In this document: piece after piece, positions 3,824-33,804 of the stretch | Layout of the letters: every line of letters begins with the position of its first letter | Position numbering within the stretch: position 1 is the stretch's first letter | Source of the DNA: Streptomyces turgidiscabies Car8 | Lineage (GTDB): Bacteria > Actinomycetota > Actinomycetes > Streptomycetales > Streptomycetaceae | Assembly: GCF_000331005.1 (NCBI RefSeq) | Contig: NZ_AEJB01000224.1 | Location: 1 to 53,129, forward strand | Direction: 5' to 3' | DNA: 53,129 nt | Notes under the pieces: model-generated | Databases searched by the model: none | What the model was told of the DNA's origin: nothing | Seen by the model: only the letters and a program-made list of their open reading frames with translations | Made by a program: the position numbers and the translations under genes

Positions 3824-4633
3824 ATGCCCGCGACGCAGATACGCACCCTCCGCTGGAAGACGGTGGCACTCGCCACGTCGACCGTCCTGGCCGCCCTCGC
3901 CATCCCCACGATGACCGCCACCCCGGCGGGCGCGACGACGACGGCGTACGACTCCACGTACTACAAGAACGCGATCGGCAAGACCGGCACGAGCCTCAAG
4001 TCCTCGCTGCACACGATCATCAGCAGCCAGACGAAGATCTCGTACTCCGCCGTCTGGAACGCGCTGATGGCCACCGACCAGGACCCGAACAACAGCAACA
4101 ACGTGATCCTGCTGTACAGCGGTGTCTCACGCGCCAAGTCCCTCAACGGCGGCGACGTCGGCGACTGGAACCGCGAGCACGTGTGGGCCAAGTCCCACGG
4201 CGACTTCGGCGAGGCGACCGGCCCCGGCACGGACCTGCACCACCTGCGTCCGGCGGATGTCCAGGTCAACAGCATCCGTGGCAACCTGGACTTCGACAAC
4301 GGCGGCAGCGCCGTCACCAACGGCGGCGGCAGCACCGTCGACTCGGACTCCTTCGCGCCGCGCGCCGCGGACCGGGGCGACGTGGCCCGCATGATCCTCT
4401 ACATGGCCGTGCGCTACGAGGGCGACGACGGTTGGGCCGACCTGGAGCCCAACGAGAAGGTCGGCAACGGCTCCAACCCCTACATGGGCAAGCTCTCCGT
4501 ACTCAAGGCCTGGAGCGAGGCGGACCCGCCCAGCGCCTTCGAGGAGAAGCGCAACCAGGTCATCTACGACACCTACCAGCACAACCGCAACCCGTTCATC
4601 GACCACCCCGAGTGGGTCGAGGCGATCTGGTAG
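3824..4633 (+). CDS. secreted endonuclease I family nuclease
   Basis: A 269-residue extracellular nuclease. A signal peptide occupies residues 1-37 (basic start, Leu/Ala-rich core, cleavage near TPAGA). The endonuclease I/NucM-type beta-beta-alpha-metal core is recognisable from NREHVWAKSHG at 116-126 (catalytic His) and DLHHLRP at 137-143, with the conserved RGNLDFDNGG segment following. Family members degrade DNA and sometimes RNA without sequence preference, so a nutrient-scavenging or self-DNA degradation role is likely. It is monocistronic, bounded by hairpins at 3623-3660 and 4662-4688. Confidence 0.92.
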   Translation: MPATQIRTLRWKTVALATSTVLAALAIPTMTATPAGATTTAYDSTYYKNAIGKTGTSLKSSLHTIISSQTKISYSAVWNALMATDQDPNNSNNVILLYSGVSRAKSLNGGDVGDWNREHVWAKSHGDFGEATGPGTDLHHLRPADVQVNSIRGNLDFDNGGSAVTNGGGSTVDSDSFAPRAADRGDVARMILYMAVRYEGDDGWADLEPNEKVGNGSNPYMGKLSVLKAWSEADPPSAFEEKRNQVIYDTYQHNRNPFIDHPEWVEAIW

Positions 4634-4661
4634 CAGTTCCTTCTCACTCCGAGTTCATGCT

Positions 4662-4688
4662 GAACGCCCCGTGATCCACGGGGCGTTC
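4662..4688. terminator. bidirectional hairpin terminator
   Basis: A perfect 12-bp stem (4662-4673 with 4677-4688) and 3-nt loop sits between two convergent genes, the nuclease ending at 4633 and the minus-strand gene ending at 4712. Confidence 0.85.
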
Positions 4689-4711
4689 AGTGCGTCACCG
4701 GCCGGTACCGG

Positions 4712-5446
4712 CTATTCGCGGTAGAGGTTCTCGGCGATGGCCAGGAAGAGGTGGAGATTCGTGACGCCGCCGGCCGGGACGGTGAACCAGGGGCTGGACG
4801 TGCCGTACTTCATGACGTGGACCGCGCCTCCCTTCACCTGGATCCCATGGACCTCGGACCACGGAAGAGGTTTCTTCCCACGGATGACCACGCCCGTGCG
4901 CGAGACCGTGAAAGAACCGAAGTCGGCCGTCCCGCCCTCAAGCACCGAGTCCAGGACCGCCTGCCCCTGGGCCCGGAGTATCGCTTCCTGCAGCAACGGC
5001 CCCCACGTCTCGGGTCTCTCGTAGAACTCCGTGATCTCCGTGCCGCCGAAGCTCGGGGCGGATATGGAGTAGACGTACTTGGTGGGGGTGGGGATGCCGT
5101 TGACGATCAGTTGGGTGATGTCCTGGTACAGCTTCGCGGAATCCCAGCGGATGGCGGTCATACCGTCCCCCAACTGCGGTTGCACGATCATGCCGTGCTC
5201 GAACAGGTGGAGACGCTTGGAGGCCTGCTTCCGGCTGAAGTTCGGGAAGCGGCGCAGCCACCAGAAGCACACCAGCCCGGGAACCAGGAAGAACGCCGAA
5301 GCCACGAAAAGCATGTTGAGGTAGACGAGGAACATCAGTGTGCCGAGCCGCTTGGGCGCGAAAGAGCCCTCAAGCGCGCCGAGTTGGTGACGGGCGGCGA
5401 GTGCCGCGACCTCGGGTGAGGGCGGCTGGAGCGTCTGTGTGGTCAT
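4712..5446 (-). CDS. membrane protein of unknown function (DUF6585-like)
   Basis: A 244-residue protein. One long or two short hydrophobic segments lie at about residues 33-65, followed by an RRFPNFSRKQASKRLHLFEHG stretch and a soluble domain containing two PH-like beta-rich modules (about 85-160 and 175-235). The overall layout resembles the DUF6585 family of membrane-anchored proteins; I assign this from memory of the pattern and with moderate certainty. No catalytic motif is visible. It converges on the nuclease gene and starts 86 bp from the 3' end of the M20 peptidase gene, so it could follow it in one transcript. Confidence 0.7.
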   Translation of the reverse strand: MTTQTLQPPSPEVAALAARHQLGALEGSFAPKRLGTLMFLVYLNMLFVASAFFLVPGLVCFWWLRRFPNFSRKQASKRLHLFEHGMIVQPQLGDGMTAIRWDSAKLYQDITQLIVNGIPTPTKYVYSISAPSFGGTEITEFYERPETWGPLLQEAILRAQGQAVLDSVLEGGTADFGSFTVSRTGVVIRGKKPLPWSEVHGIQVKGGAVHVMKYGTSSPWFTVPAGGVTNLHLFLAIAENLYRE

Positions 5447-5532
5447 GAGCCTCTGCTTCGCGTAGGGGTACTGCGGGTAGGTTCCGGGATGGCTTCGGGT
5501 GGCGTCGGCGCGGGCAGGTGCCGGCGATCGGG

Positions 5533-6693
5533 CTACCCCCGTGTCCGGGCGATGAGTTCGGCGAGCAGTCGTGTACGGGGGACCATCGCCGCGATGCGCA
5601 CATGCTCGGTGTCCGCGTGGGCGCCGCTGCCGACGCCGCCGATACCGTCCAGCGTCGGGCAGCCGACGGCCGCCGTGTAGTTGCCGTCCGAGGCACCGCC
5701 GACGGCGACCCCGCGCAGCGGTTCCTGGCCCAGCTCCGACGCGATACGGGAGGCCAGGGCGAACAGTCCGGCGGAGGAACCGGGTTCCATGGGCGGCCGT
5801 TGCCTGCCGCCCAGCACGGTCAGCCGGGCGCCGGGTGTCCGGGCGGTGAGCCCCCGCATGAGTTCGTCCGTGCGATCCTGCGCCGCCACGGTCGGCGCAC
5901 GTACGTCCACCGAGATCCTCGCCTGCGCGGGCACGGTGTTGAGCGTGCTGCCGGCCGACATCAGGGTGGGCGTGATGGTGAGGCCCCCGAGGGCGGGCGA
6001 AGTCCCGCTGGAATCAACGGGGTTGCCGGTGACACCAGGGCTGCCGGTGTCACCGGCCGACGACGCACCGAGTCCGGCGATGGCCAGTACCTGGTGAGCG
6101 GCCTCGACCGCCGCGTTGACGCCCCGGTGCGGTTCCAGCCCGGCATGGGCGGCCTTGCCGTGCACGACGACCTCGTAGCGGGAGGTGCCCTTGCGGGCGG
6201 TCTTGAGCGCGCCCGTCCCGTCTGCGGACGCCTCCAGCACAAAGGCCGCGGCGAGACCCCGCGCGGACTCCTCGATCAACTCCCGAGAGGTCGGGGAGCC
6301 GACCTCCTCGTCCCCGGTGACCAGCACGCATACACCCTCCGGCGACGGCAGGGAGGCCAGCGCGTGGAACATCTGCACCAGCCCCGCCTTCATGTCCAGG
6401 ACCCCCGGCCCCCGGGCGATCCCGTCGGCCACCGACCAGGGATGGCTTTCCAGCGAACCCCCGGGCCACACCGTGTCGTGATGCCCCACCAGCAGCACAC
6501 GCGGGGTACCGAAGTTCCACCGCAGATGGGTCACCCCGCCGACCACGATCGTCTCCGGCACCACACCCAGCAGCCTCGCGCCGAGCGCCCCGACCACCTC
6601 GGCACTCCGGGCCACGGCGGCGTGGTCGGCGGAGAAGGACTCGCAGAGCACGAGTTCCTCAAGATCGGCAAGCATCGCGGACAGAGCGATCAC
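5533..6693 (-). CDS. M20 family metallopeptidase
   Basis: From the GTG at 6691-6693 the protein is 386 residues. A longer frame to 6783 exists but would run through the regulator's putative operator. Zinc ligands and catalytic residues of the M20/CPG2 family are visible: HHDTVWP at about 71-77, GPGVLDMKAG around Asp100, and GDEEVGSP with the Glu pair at about 129-130. A dimerisation domain follows at about 165-280. Relatives are glutamate carboxypeptidase-like hydrolases of small peptides or acylated amino acids. A GGGGGAAG ribosome site precedes the GTG at close spacing. The divergent LysR gene suggests substrate-responsive control. Confidence 0.88.
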   Translation of the reverse strand: MIALSAMLADLEELVLCESFSADHAAVARSAEVVGALGARLLGVVPETIVVGGVTHLRWNFGTPRVLLVGHHDTVWPGGSLESHPWSVADGIARGPGVLDMKAGLVQMFHALASLPSPEGVCVLVTGDEEVGSPTSRELIEESARGLAAAFVLEASADGTGALKTARKGTSRYEVVVHGKAAHAGLEPHRGVNAAVEAAHQVLAIAGLGASSAGDTGSPGVTGNPVDSSGTSPALGGLTITPTLMSAGSTLNTVPAQARISVDVRAPTVAAQDRTDELMRGLTARTPGARLTVLGGRQRPPMEPGSSAGLFALASRIASELGQEPLRGVAVGGASDGNYTAAVGCPTLDGIGGVGSGAHADTEHVRIAAMVPRTRLLAELIARTRG

Positions 6694-7808: not shown

Positions 7809-8540
7809 GTGCCGAAGCTGAATCAGATCATCGCAGTCGAAAAGGGCGTCAAGTCCAAGGCTCTCCAGGAGCTCACCCAGGCCCACCAGGACGTGCAGAA
7901 GCCCGCCCTGCTGGCCGGCATCTCCCGGACCTACCAGCCCAAGGACGAGGAGGGCGAGCAACTGCCGCCCGAGTCCACGCGAGTGCAGATCAAGGCCGAG
8001 GACGCTCTGCGGGCGACCGCCGGGACGCTGACGCGGCTCTTCGACGTGACCGCGACGAAGGACTGGGCGAACCGGTCCGCGGTCGCGGACGTGGTGGTCG
8101 ACGGTACAGTGCTGTTGCCCCAGGTGCCCGTCCCGTACCTGCTGTTCCTGGAGAAGCAACTCACCGACCTGCACACCTTCGTGCGCAAGCTGCCGGTGCT
8201 CGACGCTTCCGAGTCGTGGAACCTGGACCCCTCGACTGACTCGTGGAAGACGGACCCGGTGCGGACCATCCGCACGAAGAAGGTTCCGCGCAACCACGTG
8301 AAGGCCGAGGCCACGGAGAAGCACCCGGCGCAGGTCGAGGTGTACTACGAGGACGTCCCGGTCGGTTACTGGACCACGGTGAAGTTCTCCGGCGCGCTGC
8401 CCGCCCGGCGGGTCAACGAGCTTCTCGACCGCGTCGAGAAGCTCCAGCAGTCCGTCAAGTTCGCCCGCGAGGAGGCGAACAACACCGAGGTCACCGACCA
8501 GCGGGTCGGCGACGCGGTATTCGGCTACCTCTTCCGGTAG
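7809..8540 (+). CDS. conserved protein of unknown function (DUF7873-like)
   Basis: A 243-residue soluble protein starting at GTG 7809, with no signal peptide, membrane segment or catalytic motif that I recognise. It is rich in charged residues. Notable blocks are GISRTYQPKDEEGEQLPPE (about 38-56), the segment LFDVTATKDWANRSAVADVVVDG (about 78-100), LPVLDASESWNLD (about 130-142), and a predicted coiled or helical end (about 205-232). I associate the pattern with DUF7873 of actinobacteria, from memory. Its stop is only 76 nt upstream of the first tRNA-like element, on the same strand, with just short hairpins between. It may be cotranscribed with the permuted tRNAs and could handle them; that link is inference from position only. 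Confidence 0.75.
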   Translation: MPKLNQIIAVEKGVKSKALQELTQAHQDVQKPALLAGISRTYQPKDEEGEQLPPESTRVQIKAEDALRATAGTLTRLFDVTATKDWANRSAVADVVVDGTVLLPQVPVPYLLFLEKQLTDLHTFVRKLPVLDASESWNLDPSTDSWKTDPVRTIRTKKVPRNHVKAEATEKHPAQVEVYYEDVPVGYWTTVKFSGALPARRVNELLDRVEKLQQSVKFAREEANNTEVTDQRVGDAVFGYLFR

Positions 8541-8552
8541 CCCCCACATACG

Positions 8553-8588
8553 CCCTCCGTCGCGAGCGGAGGGTGCGCGATGAGCGCA
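8553..8588 (+). other. two adjacent hairpins in the 5' leader of the tRNA locus
   Basis: CCCTCCG/CGGAGGG (8553-8559 with 8567-8573, 7-nt loop) is followed directly by TGCGC/GCGCA (8574-8578 with 8584-8588, loop GATGA). The first could be the terminator of the preceding gene. Together they could equally be structured leader RNA of the permuted tRNA transcript. Confidence 0.55.
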
Positions 8589-8616
8589 AGCTGAAACTGA
8601 TGTTGAAGCTGATCAA

Positions 8617-8700
8617 GGGGTGTCAGTTGGGGGTTCGAATCCCTCTCCCCGCACCACGTGCGGGGGTGGCCCAAGCCTGGCAGAGGCGGCCCCATGAAAC
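8617..8700 (+). tRNA. candidate circularly permuted tRNA 1 (3' half precedes 5' half)
   Basis: Read in order, this segment has the 3' half first. It runs: anticodon-stem 3' strand GGGGT (8617-8621), variable region (8622-8628), T-arm (8629-8645, loop TTCGAAT), acceptor 3' strand TCCCCGC (8646-8652), and encoded ACCA (8653-8656). A 3-nt linker CGT follows. Then the 5' half: acceptor GCGGGGG (8660-8666), T8 (8667), D-arm with G18G19 at 8679-8680 (8669-8687), base 26, and anticodon stem GCCCC (8689-8693). Acceptor strands pair 7/7 (one G.U) and anticodon strands pair 5/5 (one G.U), both only in permuted order. If the whole loop is ATGAAAC (8694-8700), the anticodon would be GAA (Phe). A break elsewhere in the loop would give another identity. 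No linear tRNA fits. Confidence 0.75.
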
Positions 8701-8766
8701 TCAGATTCTCGCTCCAGTCTCAGTATTCGCCGCCGAACACCGGATCGACCGAGCGTGGGCGAACAT

Positions 8767-8843
8767 CGACGGATGGGGGTTCAAGTCCCCTCGGCGCCTC
8801 TCTCGTGGCGCTGTAGTTCAAAGGCAGAACACGTCGATCTCAA
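8767..8843 (+). tRNA. candidate circularly permuted tRNA 2 (3' half precedes 5' half)
   Basis: Same layout as tRNA 1, 66 nt further on. 3' half: anticodon-stem 3' strand CGACG (8767-8771), 3-nt variable region, T-arm (8775-8791, loop TTCAAGT), acceptor 3' strand CGGCGCC (8792-8798), discriminator T (8799). CCA is not encoded. After the linker CTCTCGT comes the 5' half: acceptor GGCGCTG (8807-8813), T8 A9, D-arm GTTC/GAAC with G18G19 (8816-8830), A26, and anticodon stem CGTCG (8832-8836). Acceptor strands pair 7/7 (one G.U) and anticodon strands pair 5/5. The following ATCTCAA would be a full loop with anticodon CTC (Glu), matching the loop of ordinary bacterial tRNA-Glu except at position 32. 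The variable region is short. Confidence 0.75.
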
Positions 8844-8895
8844 TATGACCCGCGGCTCTTAAACGCCGTCGGTGTGCGCAAATGGGTGGCAAGCT

Positions 8896-8928
8896 GGAGC
8901 CCGGGAGCTGGACATGCTCCCGGGCTCC
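8896..8928. terminator. hairpin terminator after the tRNA locus
   Basis: A perfect 13-bp stem (8896-8908 with 8916-8928) with a 7-nt loop lies about 50 nt after the second permuted tRNA and before the end of the minus-strand secreted protein gene at 9012. It probably ends transcription from both sides. Confidence 0.85.
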
Positions 8929-9011
8929 GTCACGTTGTGGTCCGAAGTGGGCCTCAACGGGGTCGACCCAGGACGCGTAGGCGGGACCTGACTGTCAGAC
9001 CTGCTGGCCTG

Positions 9012-11623: not shown

Positions 11624-12544
11624 CTATGCAGCCAGTTCCTCGGTGAGGCTGGCCTGATAGCTATGTTCGTAGTCGATCGGGCTCTCGAAGCCACACACGC
11701 TGTGTAGCCGACGGCTGTTGTAGAAGTCGGTGATCCAGGTCGCGATCCGGATCCGGGCCTCGGTGCGTGTGGCGAAGGTGTGTCGGTGGACGTACTCGAC
11801 CTTCAGCACGCTGTTGAATGCCTCGCTGACGGCGTTGTCGAAGCACGAGCCGACCCGGCCCATGGACTGGAAGACGCCCAGCCGGCGGCAGGCTCGGCGG
11901 AACCTCCGAGAGCCGTACTCGCTGCCGCGGTCCGTGTGGAAAATGACGCCGCGCACGTCCCCGCCGCGGGTCGCCACGGCCATGTGCAGGGCGGCCACCA
12001 CCAGTTCGGCATCGTGACGGGCACCCATCGCATACCCGAGCAGGCGGCGGGAGAACAGGTCGATGACCGTGGCCAGGTAGAGCTTGCCCTCGCCGGTCCC
12101 GATCTCCGTCATGTCCCCGCACCAGACCAGGTCGGGTGCCTCGGCGGTGAAGTCCCGCCGTACGAAGTCCGGGGCGGCCGGCCGCTTGCCCGGCCGGGTC
12201 AGCCCCCGCCGTCTGCACACCTTCCGTGCGACCAGGCCGAGCTCGGCCATGATCTTCGCGATGGTGTTCACCGAGACCCGCCAGCCCTGCCTCACCAGCC
12301 TGATCCAGATCTTCGGCGAGCCGTAGGTGCCGCCGGAAGTGTCGAACTCCTCCTCCACCGCTTCGATCAGGTGCTGTCTGCGCAGCTCACGCCGGGTAGG
12401 TCGGCGGATGCGGTGCTTGTAGAACCCCGACTCGCTCACGCCCAGGGCGCGGCAGGAGACGCGGTGCGAAATGCCGTGCTCGGTCCTGAAGTCGCTGATC
12501 ACCCCGACGACGGACGCCGGGTCCGCCACGGCTACTTCACCCAC
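11624..12544 (-). CDS. IS3-family transposase OrfB (DDE integrase)
   Basis: A 306-residue transposase catalytic subunit. A HTH_21-like N-terminal region (about 15-75) and IS3 linker precede the rve integrase core with the DDE triad: Asp144 (CGDMTE), Asp205 (FHTDRGSEY) and Glu241 (SEAFNS), 35 residues between the last two, the canonical IS3 spacing. It begins at GTG 12544 and overlaps the orfA end by 13 bp in another frame. This is the usual IS3 layout in which a -1 frameshift makes the fused OrfAB transposase. No obvious A-rich slippery site is visible in this GC-rich overlap. Confidence 0.93.
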   Translation of the reverse strand: MGEVAVADPASVVGVISDFRTEHGISHRVSCRALGVSESGFYKHRIRRPTRRELRRQHLIEAVEEEFDTSGGTYGSPKIWIRLVRQGWRVSVNTIAKIMAELGLVARKVCRRRGLTRPGKRPAAPDFVRRDFTAEAPDLVWCGDMTEIGTGEGKLYLATVIDLFSRRLLGYAMGARHDAELVVAALHMAVATRGGDVRGVIFHTDRGSEYGSRRFRRACRRLGVFQSMGRVGSCFDNAVSEAFNSVLKVEYVHRHTFATRTEARIRIATWITDFYNSRRLHSVCGFESPIDYEHSYQASLTEELAA

Positions 12545-12819
12545 AGGACCATGCAGCGTTTGAGGACATCACGCTCCATGCCCAGCTCCTTGTTGTCCCG
12601 CCTGAGCTGGGCATTCTCCCGTCGCAACCGCTCCAACTCGTCGCTCCCGCCAGCCGGTACGGTCCCTGCCCGACGGGCGCGGGAGACCCAGCTCGCCAGG
12701 GTGGCCTCGTTGATCCCCAGATCCTCGGCGACCTCCGCGATCGTTTTGCCGGTCTCCGTGACGATCCGTACGGCCCCCTCACGGAACTCCGGATCGAACT
12801 TCCGTCGCTTCTCCGCCAT
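12532..12819 (-). CDS. IS3-family transposase OrfA (HTH)
   Basis: About 95 residues from ATG 12819 (a TTG three codons earlier is possible). It contains the Tnp_1/HTH domain (KFDPEFREGAVRIV, TIAEVAEDLGINEATLASWV), then a leucine-zipper-like coiled coil (ELERLRRENAQLRRDNKELGMERDVLKRC) for multimerisation. It recognises the IS ends and supplies the N-terminal part of the OrfAB fusion. Confidence 0.92.
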   Translation of the reverse strand: MAEKRRKFDPEFREGAVRIVTETGKTIAEVAEDLGINEATLASWVSRARRAGTVPAGGSDELERLRRENAQLRRDNKELGMERDVLKRCMVLWVK

Positions 12820-12872
12820 GACTCCCAACTTCCCCTGCAGTCAGGGTCTTCACGCTACGAGGGGAGGGACAG

Positions 12873-33164: not shown

Positions 33165-33804
33165 GGCCGACGGACAGTGCCCCGGTGATCGCGGCGGTGT
33201 GCCGATAGGCGACCCTGGCCGCCGCGACGACCTGGTCCTGTGCGTCGGGGTCGGTGAAAGCCTGGTTCATACGGGCGGTGAAGCGGGCCCAGCGTTCGCG
33301 GTCGCCGCTGCTGTAGTAGGCGACGCCGTCCGTACCGCCGTCCCTTGCTGGGAGTCGGTAGGCGGCGGTGACGTACGGGTACAGGTAGAGGGCGCCGAGC
33401 GTCGAGCCCTCCATGACGTAGAGGAACCCGAGGAGGGCACGGAGGTCGGACTCTGCGGCCCGCTGCCGGATCTCCGCAGTGAACGCTTCCGCCTCCTCGG
33501 CCGCCCAGGAACCGGGCGCGGTGCCGAGGTTCGCGAAGTAGGCCAGGTCGCGATCGACGAGGGGGAGTTTGACGAGGTCGGCTGACCACACGGGTTCGGC
33601 GGCAGCTACTCCCGTGAGCCGGGACAGCTCCCCTTCCAGGGATCCCAACACCAGCCGATATGCGGCGAGTTGGCCGACGTAACACTCGACGGGCAGGGTC
33701 CCGGCGAGCATCGCGCTCGCGAACGGGGTGGCCTCCAGGGCGTCGTGGCGGTCGCGGGTACTCGTACGCAGCCGCTCAACCATCGTGACCGGGGCCGCCG
33801 TCAT
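33121..33804 (-). CDS. biliverdin-producing heme oxygenase
   Basis: A 227-residue all-helical protein. It has the proximal histidine at residue 20 (STRDRHDALE), the helix AYRLVLGSLEGEL, and the distal-helix segment GFLYVMEGSTLGALYLYP, close to the YVLEGSTLGG motif of phytochrome-linked heme oxygenases. It would open heme to biliverdin with release of iron and CO. The ATGA overlap with the upstream polyprenyl synthase gene indicates one operon. It runs 44 bp into acdH on the opposite strand; the Pro/Ser/Ala-rich tail lies in this overlap. Confidence 0.85.
   Translation of the reverse strand: MTAAPVTMVERLRTSTRDRHDALEATPFASAMLAGTLPVECYVGQLAAYRLVLGSLEGELSRLTGVAAAEPVWSADLVKLPLVDRDLAYFANLGTAPGSWAAEEAEAFTAEIRQRAAESDLRALLGFLYVMEGSTLGALYLYPYVTAAYRLPARDGGTDGVAYYSSGDRERWARFTARMNQAFTDPDAQDQVVAAARVAYRHTAAITGALSVGLSPPSPAPSPTPAR

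Follow-up and report, generated by a model that had tools for sequence, protein, structure and literature searches.

A likely pair of tandem Y-RNA-like noncoding RNAs beside a DUF7873 gene in Streptomyces turgidiscabies Car8

Described relatives and the locus

Y RNAs are known as partners of the Ro60 protein, and in two-piece (permuted) tmRNA, whose parts stand in swapped order, a tRNA-like half that lacks an anticodon sits on a long helix. According to PMC8394870, the stem of the bacterial Y RNA YrlA (RF02553) holds Rsr/Ro60, while the tRNA-like domain is bound by PNPase and receives modifications from DusA and TruB; an operon with two Y RNAs, rsr-yrlBA-rtcBA, is described in PMC7790460. In permuted tRNA genes the 3' half precedes the 5' half, the acceptor strands being separated by a short stretch of sequence (PMC3400036 and PMC10085705), and PMC10085705 also mentions permuted tmRNA. 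No report of a module combining DUF7873 with such an RNA was found in the open-licence PMC literature.

The window analysed here is the whole stretch of 53,129 nucleotides at positions 1-53,129 of contig NZ_AEJB01000224.1 in the draft genome of S. turgidiscabies Car8 (GCF_000331005.1). At 8617-8843 it holds a tandem pair of units, each composed of T-arm, acceptor hairpin and D-arm in an order permuted relative to tRNA, and a DUF7873 gene (7809-8540) lies directly 5' of them. Here we present evidence that the units likely represent two Y-RNA-like noncoding RNAs, proposed to bind the adjacent DUF7873 protein, rather than tRNAs. The features of the locus are as follows.

7809..8540, + strand: DUF7873 gene, 243 aa, proposed protein partner (PF25283, 403 bits; single copy in the genome)
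8553..8573, + strand: leader hairpin CCCTCCG/CGGAGGG just past the DUF7873 stop (minimum-energy fold; 4 pairs in the 18-sequence consensus, 3 of them double-changed)
8588..8599, + strand: first ARRYTN hexamer tract (sequence; enriched 3' of DUF7873)
8590..8724, + strand: unit 1 as a whole, predicted Y-RNA-like hairpin (folds)
8629..8645, + strand: unit 1 T-arm (pairing check; 35-sequence alignment)
8646..8666, + strand: unit 1 capped acceptor hairpin, 8646-8652 with 8660-8666, loop ACCACGT (7/7 pairs double-changed in 35 sequences)
8669..8687, + strand: unit 1 D-arm (pairing check; 35-sequence alignment)
8697..8708, + strand: second ARRYTN hexamer tract (sequence; enriched 3' of DUF7873)
8729..8890, + strand: unit 2 as a whole, predicted Y-RNA-like hairpin (folds)
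8751..8759, + strand: 5' strand of the unit 2 outer helix, pairing with 8849-8858, one bulge (6/9 pairs double-changed, 83.3% of cells paired)
8765..8771, + strand: 5' strand of the unit 2 inner stem, pairing with 8832-8838, where a tRNA would have its anticodon stem and loop (7/7 double-changed, 83.1% of cells paired)
8775..8791, + strand: unit 2 T-arm (40-sequence alignment)
8792..8813, + strand: unit 2 capped acceptor hairpin, 8792-8798 with 8807-8813 (7/7 double-changed, 99.6% of cells paired)
8816..8830, + strand: unit 2 D-arm (40-sequence alignment)
8896..8928, + strand: predicted terminator-like hairpin without a T run (folds)

The succession of parts in the units is the one found in a bacterial Y RNA, since in YrlA, as aligned and as described in PMC8394870, T-arm, capped acceptor hairpin and D-arm likewise follow one another on a long stem. 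Like YrlA, the units lack an anticodon arm and have instead a long stem in which the 5' and 3' ends pair, and their tandem arrangement resembles the two Y RNAs of the rsr-yrlBA-rtcBA operon as given in PMC7790460. They differ from YrlA in scoring far under the family cut-off, in lying beside DUF7873 instead of Ro60 (rsr) and in their ARRYTN tracts. With permuted tRNA genes of the Cyanidioschyzon type they share the order of the halves, but they lack an anticodon loop and their stem continues; with permuted tmRNA they share the swapped layout, but they comprise two tandem heads and receive no tmRNA call from ARAGORN. The D-arm of unit 1 may resemble that of tRNA-Leu and the D-arm of unit 2 that of tRNA-Gly. 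Elsewhere in the window two frames at 11624-12828 on the reverse strand look, by eye, like an IS3-type transposase pair.

Structure of the units and the tRNA readings

The pairings drawn in the first-pass annotation are present. In unit 1 the acceptor strands 8646-8652 and 8660-8666 pair 7/7 and the strands 8617-8621 and 8689-8693 pair 5/5, each with one wobble; in unit 2 the corresponding pairings are 8792-8798 with 8807-8813 (7/7, one wobble) and 8767-8771 with 8832-8836 (5/5). Likewise in place are the T-loops, the GG of the D-loops and ACCA after the acceptor 3' strand of unit 1. The lower stem of unit 2 has at least 7 bp, where that reading had 5 bp, and both units sit inside longer predicted hairpins (about 8590-8724 and 8729-8890). 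The minimum-energy fold of 8541-8935 (z-score -3.53) consists of leader hairpins, the two long hairpins and the terminator-like hairpin, and a consensus fold of 18 sequences reproduces the main hairpins, 42 of its 89 pairs being double-changed.

Compensatory changes in homologous loci bear out the permuted stems, which covary strongly in both units. In both alignments one close row was swapped for the window sequence, and the aligned loci are related rather than independent. The units were picked by a detector that requires the T, acceptor and D stems and leaves the lower stem free. For unit 2, 53 thinned rows were reduced to 40 by dropping two wrong picks and 11 rows with acceptor loops longer than 12 nt; with the structure drawn from the window, 90.6% of cells are paired, against 72.4% in shuffled and 40-48% in slid alignments, the percentages of the T, acceptor and D helices being inflated because the detector demanded those stems. 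Both sides have changed in 27 of the 32 pairs, and double-changed cells number 222 against 62 after shuffling. For the head of unit 1 (43 rows reduced to 35 by dropping 8 long-loop rows) the equally inflated paired fraction is 99.6%, against 83.0% shuffled, with 12/15 pairs double-changed and 69 double-changed cells against 10. The three helices reappear, along with four lower pairs, in an unguided consensus fold of unit 1, in which 14 of 19 pairs are double-changed.

Below the head of unit 2 follow a 7-bp helix, an internal loop and a 9-bp outer helix (6 pairs double-changed), and both helices covary. Beyond the five pairs expected of an anticodon stem, columns 19-97 read AU in 14 sequences, GC in 14, GU in 1 and unpaired in 11 (n=40), and columns 20-96 read CG in 13, UA in 10, AU in 3, GC in 2, UG in 2, GU in 1 and unpaired in 9 (n=40). 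At the place of an open anticodon loop, which is absent from unit 2, the stem in these 40 sequences runs on as a covarying helix.

This continuation bears most directly on the first-pass annotation, which took the units for tandem permuted tRNA genes; their transcripts would be circularised at the anticodon loop and their acceptor loop cut by RNase P and a 3' nuclease. The T-acceptor-D order, with the 3' half before the 5' half and the halves pairing, agrees with such genes, as do the invariant tRNA bases and the ACCA of window unit 1; moreover, ARAGORN accepts 193 of 195 units after rotation. This last result, part of what had been expected of rotated sequences, is offset by the 120 joins tried per unit and by the lack of a settled anticodon. 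Neither the unit 2 alignment nor the rotations of both units yield a 5-bp anticodon stem with an open loop, and some acceptor loops are merely TCGT, without CCA. The decisive point is that the lower stem covaries past the five anticodon-stem pairs, so the units are not to be read as permuted tRNA genes, an explanation we now regard as very unlikely; the bacterial pathway for permuted tRNA maturation that the annotation inferred is not needed to explain the locus.

Of 193 units, 54 have a CCA after the acceptor 3' strand and 139 lack it, where chance would give about 1/64. Among viral rows it follows the discriminator position in 5/19 for unit 1 and 7/21 for unit 2; counts by unit are confined to these viral rows and otherwise given as a total, because some genome unit 1 rows were sorted as unit 2 or overwritten. 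Its frequency, above chance but not general, is read as a sign of tRNA ancestry. The CCA retained in 54 of the 193 units also counts against the Y-RNA-like reading, as it suggests a role for the acceptor end that is not required of ordinary Y RNAs. One such role would be a cut at the acceptor loop giving two-piece tmRNA-like RNAs whose CCA acceptor end is charged with an amino acid. The viral frequencies speak for this, but with CCA absent from 139/193 units and no tmRNA found by ARAGORN we consider it improbable. Over the window ARAGORN reports 0 tRNA and 0 tmRNA, Rfam at gathering cut-offs gives no match, and the cyano_tmRNA model reaches 17.8 bits in a partial match (cut-off 70).

That the halves do not pair in ordinary linear order was a further claim of the annotation. 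It holds for the window, where ARAGORN finds no linear tRNA, but is less clear-cut in relatives: in 11 of 106 loci (including the best 80 of 573 relatives) ARAGORN places a linear tRNA over unit 1, called Val, Phe, Leu, Ser or undetermined, and in none over unit 2. These calls are not conserved, are taken to lean on the upstream hairpin, and were rejected as tRNA genes.

Tandem ordinary tRNA genes are a confounder in their own right. The RNA model matches them too, because the 3' half of one gene and the 5' half of the next mimic the permuted order. On another contig (C415, L115:6853-7005) two tandem tRNA-Asn genes score 50 bits with the RNA model and 37.6 bits with Rfam YrlA, a false match, so that an artefact or relic of this kind is real elsewhere. 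For the units described here it is barely conceivable: outer halves are lacking, ARAGORN finds 0 tRNA in the window, what adjoins them on the 5' side is the DUF7873 coding sequence, and the lower-stem covariation contradicts it. A second RNA class in Streptomyces (45-56 bits) was rejected, its one member that was read, C415, being the tandem tRNA-Asn pair, and the rest were treated alike. A match of the viral contig L093 at 5337-5399 overlaps a tRNA-Pro, the third unit of L101 overlaps an ordinary tRNA-Glu, and the second unit of L096 looks spurious; the latter two units were left out of the alignments and kept in the 106-locus tallies and among the 195 rotated units. On yet another contig (L116:6120-6241, reverse strand) a weak YrlA-like match of 26.9 bits lies between tRNA-Met and tRNA-Trp.

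Linkage to DUF7873 and comparison with Ro60-associated RNAs

The 106 loci comprise the best 80 of 573 relatives' genome loci, 18 viral-contig loci and 8 of 73 phage records. In a 760-nt zone 3' of DUF7873 the detector finds at least one unit, lying within 700 nt of the gene, in 105 of these 106 loci, which include the best 80 of 573 relatives, against 10 and 6 matches, some of them maybe tandem tRNAs, in two control zones of equal size at the same loci; the annotation's view that the layout is unlikely to arise by chance is thereby upheld. A stricter detector run on crude two-base-block shuffles gives 0.005 matches per zone. Of the 106 loci (again including the best 80 of 573 relatives), 88 have two units, 16 have a single one, one has three and one has none, and in some loci that retain unit 2 the detector misses unit 1. 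The sole miss is a Microcoleus phage (L105), in which a HEARO RNA and an annotated gene (4184-5461) separate DUF7873 from RNA-model matches at 5568-5673 (23 bits) and 5813-5919 (29.2 bits), the first of which a looser T-loop detector recovers. In that phage the HEARO RNA and the gene (L105:3950-5461) are placed as if a mobile element had inserted.

Further loci agree with this gene order. All 13 additional genome loci drawn by the protein carry the RNA, though some perhaps come from the same species as before, and so do 4/4 further Vibrio and Rhizobium phages, whose DUF7873 is 28-30% identical. Among 61 genomes (own and relatives), the 30 best RNA-model loci, the window included, all have DUF7873 just upstream. 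The RNA model has a match in 59 of the 61, which are not to be counted as carriers because the model also matches tandem tRNAs; the module is counted only where DUF7873 is present. One relative, G056, holds two strong unit 2 matches (C1:3313552 and C1:6402191; 74.1 and 70.5 bits), which may reflect a second copy of the module. When open frames in the flanks of the 106 loci were clustered, one of the 14 largest clusters listed spanned all 106 and was taken as DUF7873; clusters of 94, 58 and 53 loci were judged by their position and composition to be alternative frames that cover DUF7873 and the RNA zone. No other conserved neighbour appeared among these 14, the remaining clusters spanning at most 22 loci and no viral ones.

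The DUF7873 protein has a confidently predicted fold (pLDDT 92.1, pTM 0.75); structure searches returned no convincing match, and no named family beyond Pfam was found for it. Among 7,998 candidates scored, 7,623 match the family. It has a patchy distribution, occurring in 14 of the 197 genomes and 3 of the 90 genera of the class, and extends to 4 plasmid-collection records and 73 phage records, in several of which tRNA clusters surround the gene; this patchiness and the occurrence on plasmids and phages fit horizontal spread.

Among the 80 genome loci (the best 80 of 573 relatives), 63 carry at least two consecutive ARRYTN hexamers in the 450 nt that follow DUF7873, against 1% of dinucleotide shuffles; the same holds for 24 of 30 viral and phage loci, against 4%. 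Overall, 87 of 110 loci (L002-L107, L163-L166; including the best 80 of 573 relatives) carry such tracts. In the window they flank the head of unit 1 and partly pair with each other in the fold. As a matter of speculation, they may be a binding site for DUF7873. They can also be read as alternating Lys/Arg and Leu/Phe codons, and a coded peptide was considered and set aside. A one-base length difference follows the tracts in 4 of 18 rows of the 18-sequence alignment, and CTC at 8712-8714 is at least 90% invariant, its third base included, in the 35-sequence unit 1 alignment.

Relaxed Rfam thresholds over 8500-9000 give YrlA (RF02553) as top match twice, at full length: 8753-8858 with 24.7 bits (E 0.0052) and 8605-8711 with 21.1 bits (E 0.057), the cut-off being 69 and weak YrlA matches (E up to 1) occurring in 13 of 14 control genomes, in none above cut-off. 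YrlA is also the top non-tRNA match at the unit 2 place in 5 of 8 phage loci. The module is taken to act in the manner of two Y RNAs, and is not classed as YrlA because it lacks both a family-level score and a Ro60 neighbourhood. At 33645-33751 on the reverse strand of the window there is a very weak YrlA match (19.3 bits, E 0.9).

The units might instead be ordinary Y RNAs of the Ro60 system acting in trans, with DUF7873 a mere neighbour or accessory. The same genome does have a Ro60 (TROVE) gene, a 544-aa frame, on another contig, directly beside which lies a YrlA-like RNA (44.2 bits; gene and RNA together at L114:5708-7478) that itself has the T-acceptor-D order and on whose stretch ARAGORN finds no tRNA. 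TROVE also lies about 5 kb from DUF7873 in Rhizobium phage RHph_TM21B, and on viral contig L093 (5115-6738) RNA-model matches at 5115-5225 and 5485-5590 stand just before a TROVE frame some 2.7 kb from the DUF7873 module. But TROVE, the known Y-RNA protein, is present in 4 and absent from 22 of the 26 viral and phage DUF7873 records, some of which are fragments, while the RNAs still adjoin DUF7873. Seven of the eight phage records lack it over their full length (the Microcoleus record being a partial genome), with RHph_TM21B as the exception. From this survey of viral and phage records it follows that DUF7873 needs no phage-encoded Ro60 and that the two systems are parallel and sometimes neighbours; action in trans with Ro60 appears unlikely.

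Proposed function and significance

What is new is the partner: Y-like RNAs linked to DUF7873 instead of Ro60. We propose a stand-alone module of the DUF7873 protein and tandem tRNA-mimicking RNAs. DUF7873 and the two RNAs would derive from one transcript ending near 8896-8928, and the protein would hold the RNA stems, perhaps via the hexamer tracts. By analogy with YrlA, DUF7873 could take the place of Ro60 on the units, and the tRNA-like heads may dock or decoy an enzyme that grips tRNA, for which the YrlA counterparts would be PNPase and modifying enzymes. The result would be a particle for handling RNA, a counterpart to the one that Ro60 forms with Y RNAs. In phages the module is often found amid tRNA genes, and there it would likely guard or process tRNAs during infection.

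A wider and tentative picture, possible rather than probable, is a Ro60-independent RNA-protein machine spread by phages over actinobacterial, proteobacterial and cyanobacterial hosts, in which DUF7873 assembles along ARRYUN repeats and the permuted heads either capture tRNA for an enzyme that handles it or present that enzyme with an imitation.

The locus calls for caution, as what looks like a permuted tRNA gene in a bacterium can turn out to be a Y-like RNA or a tandem of tRNA genes. The module offers a first lead for the uncharacterised DUF7873 family, which is unrelated to Ro60. If the proposed reading is true, tRNA mimicry by capped, permuted RNAs would be a more general device, found in Streptomyces and in many phages.
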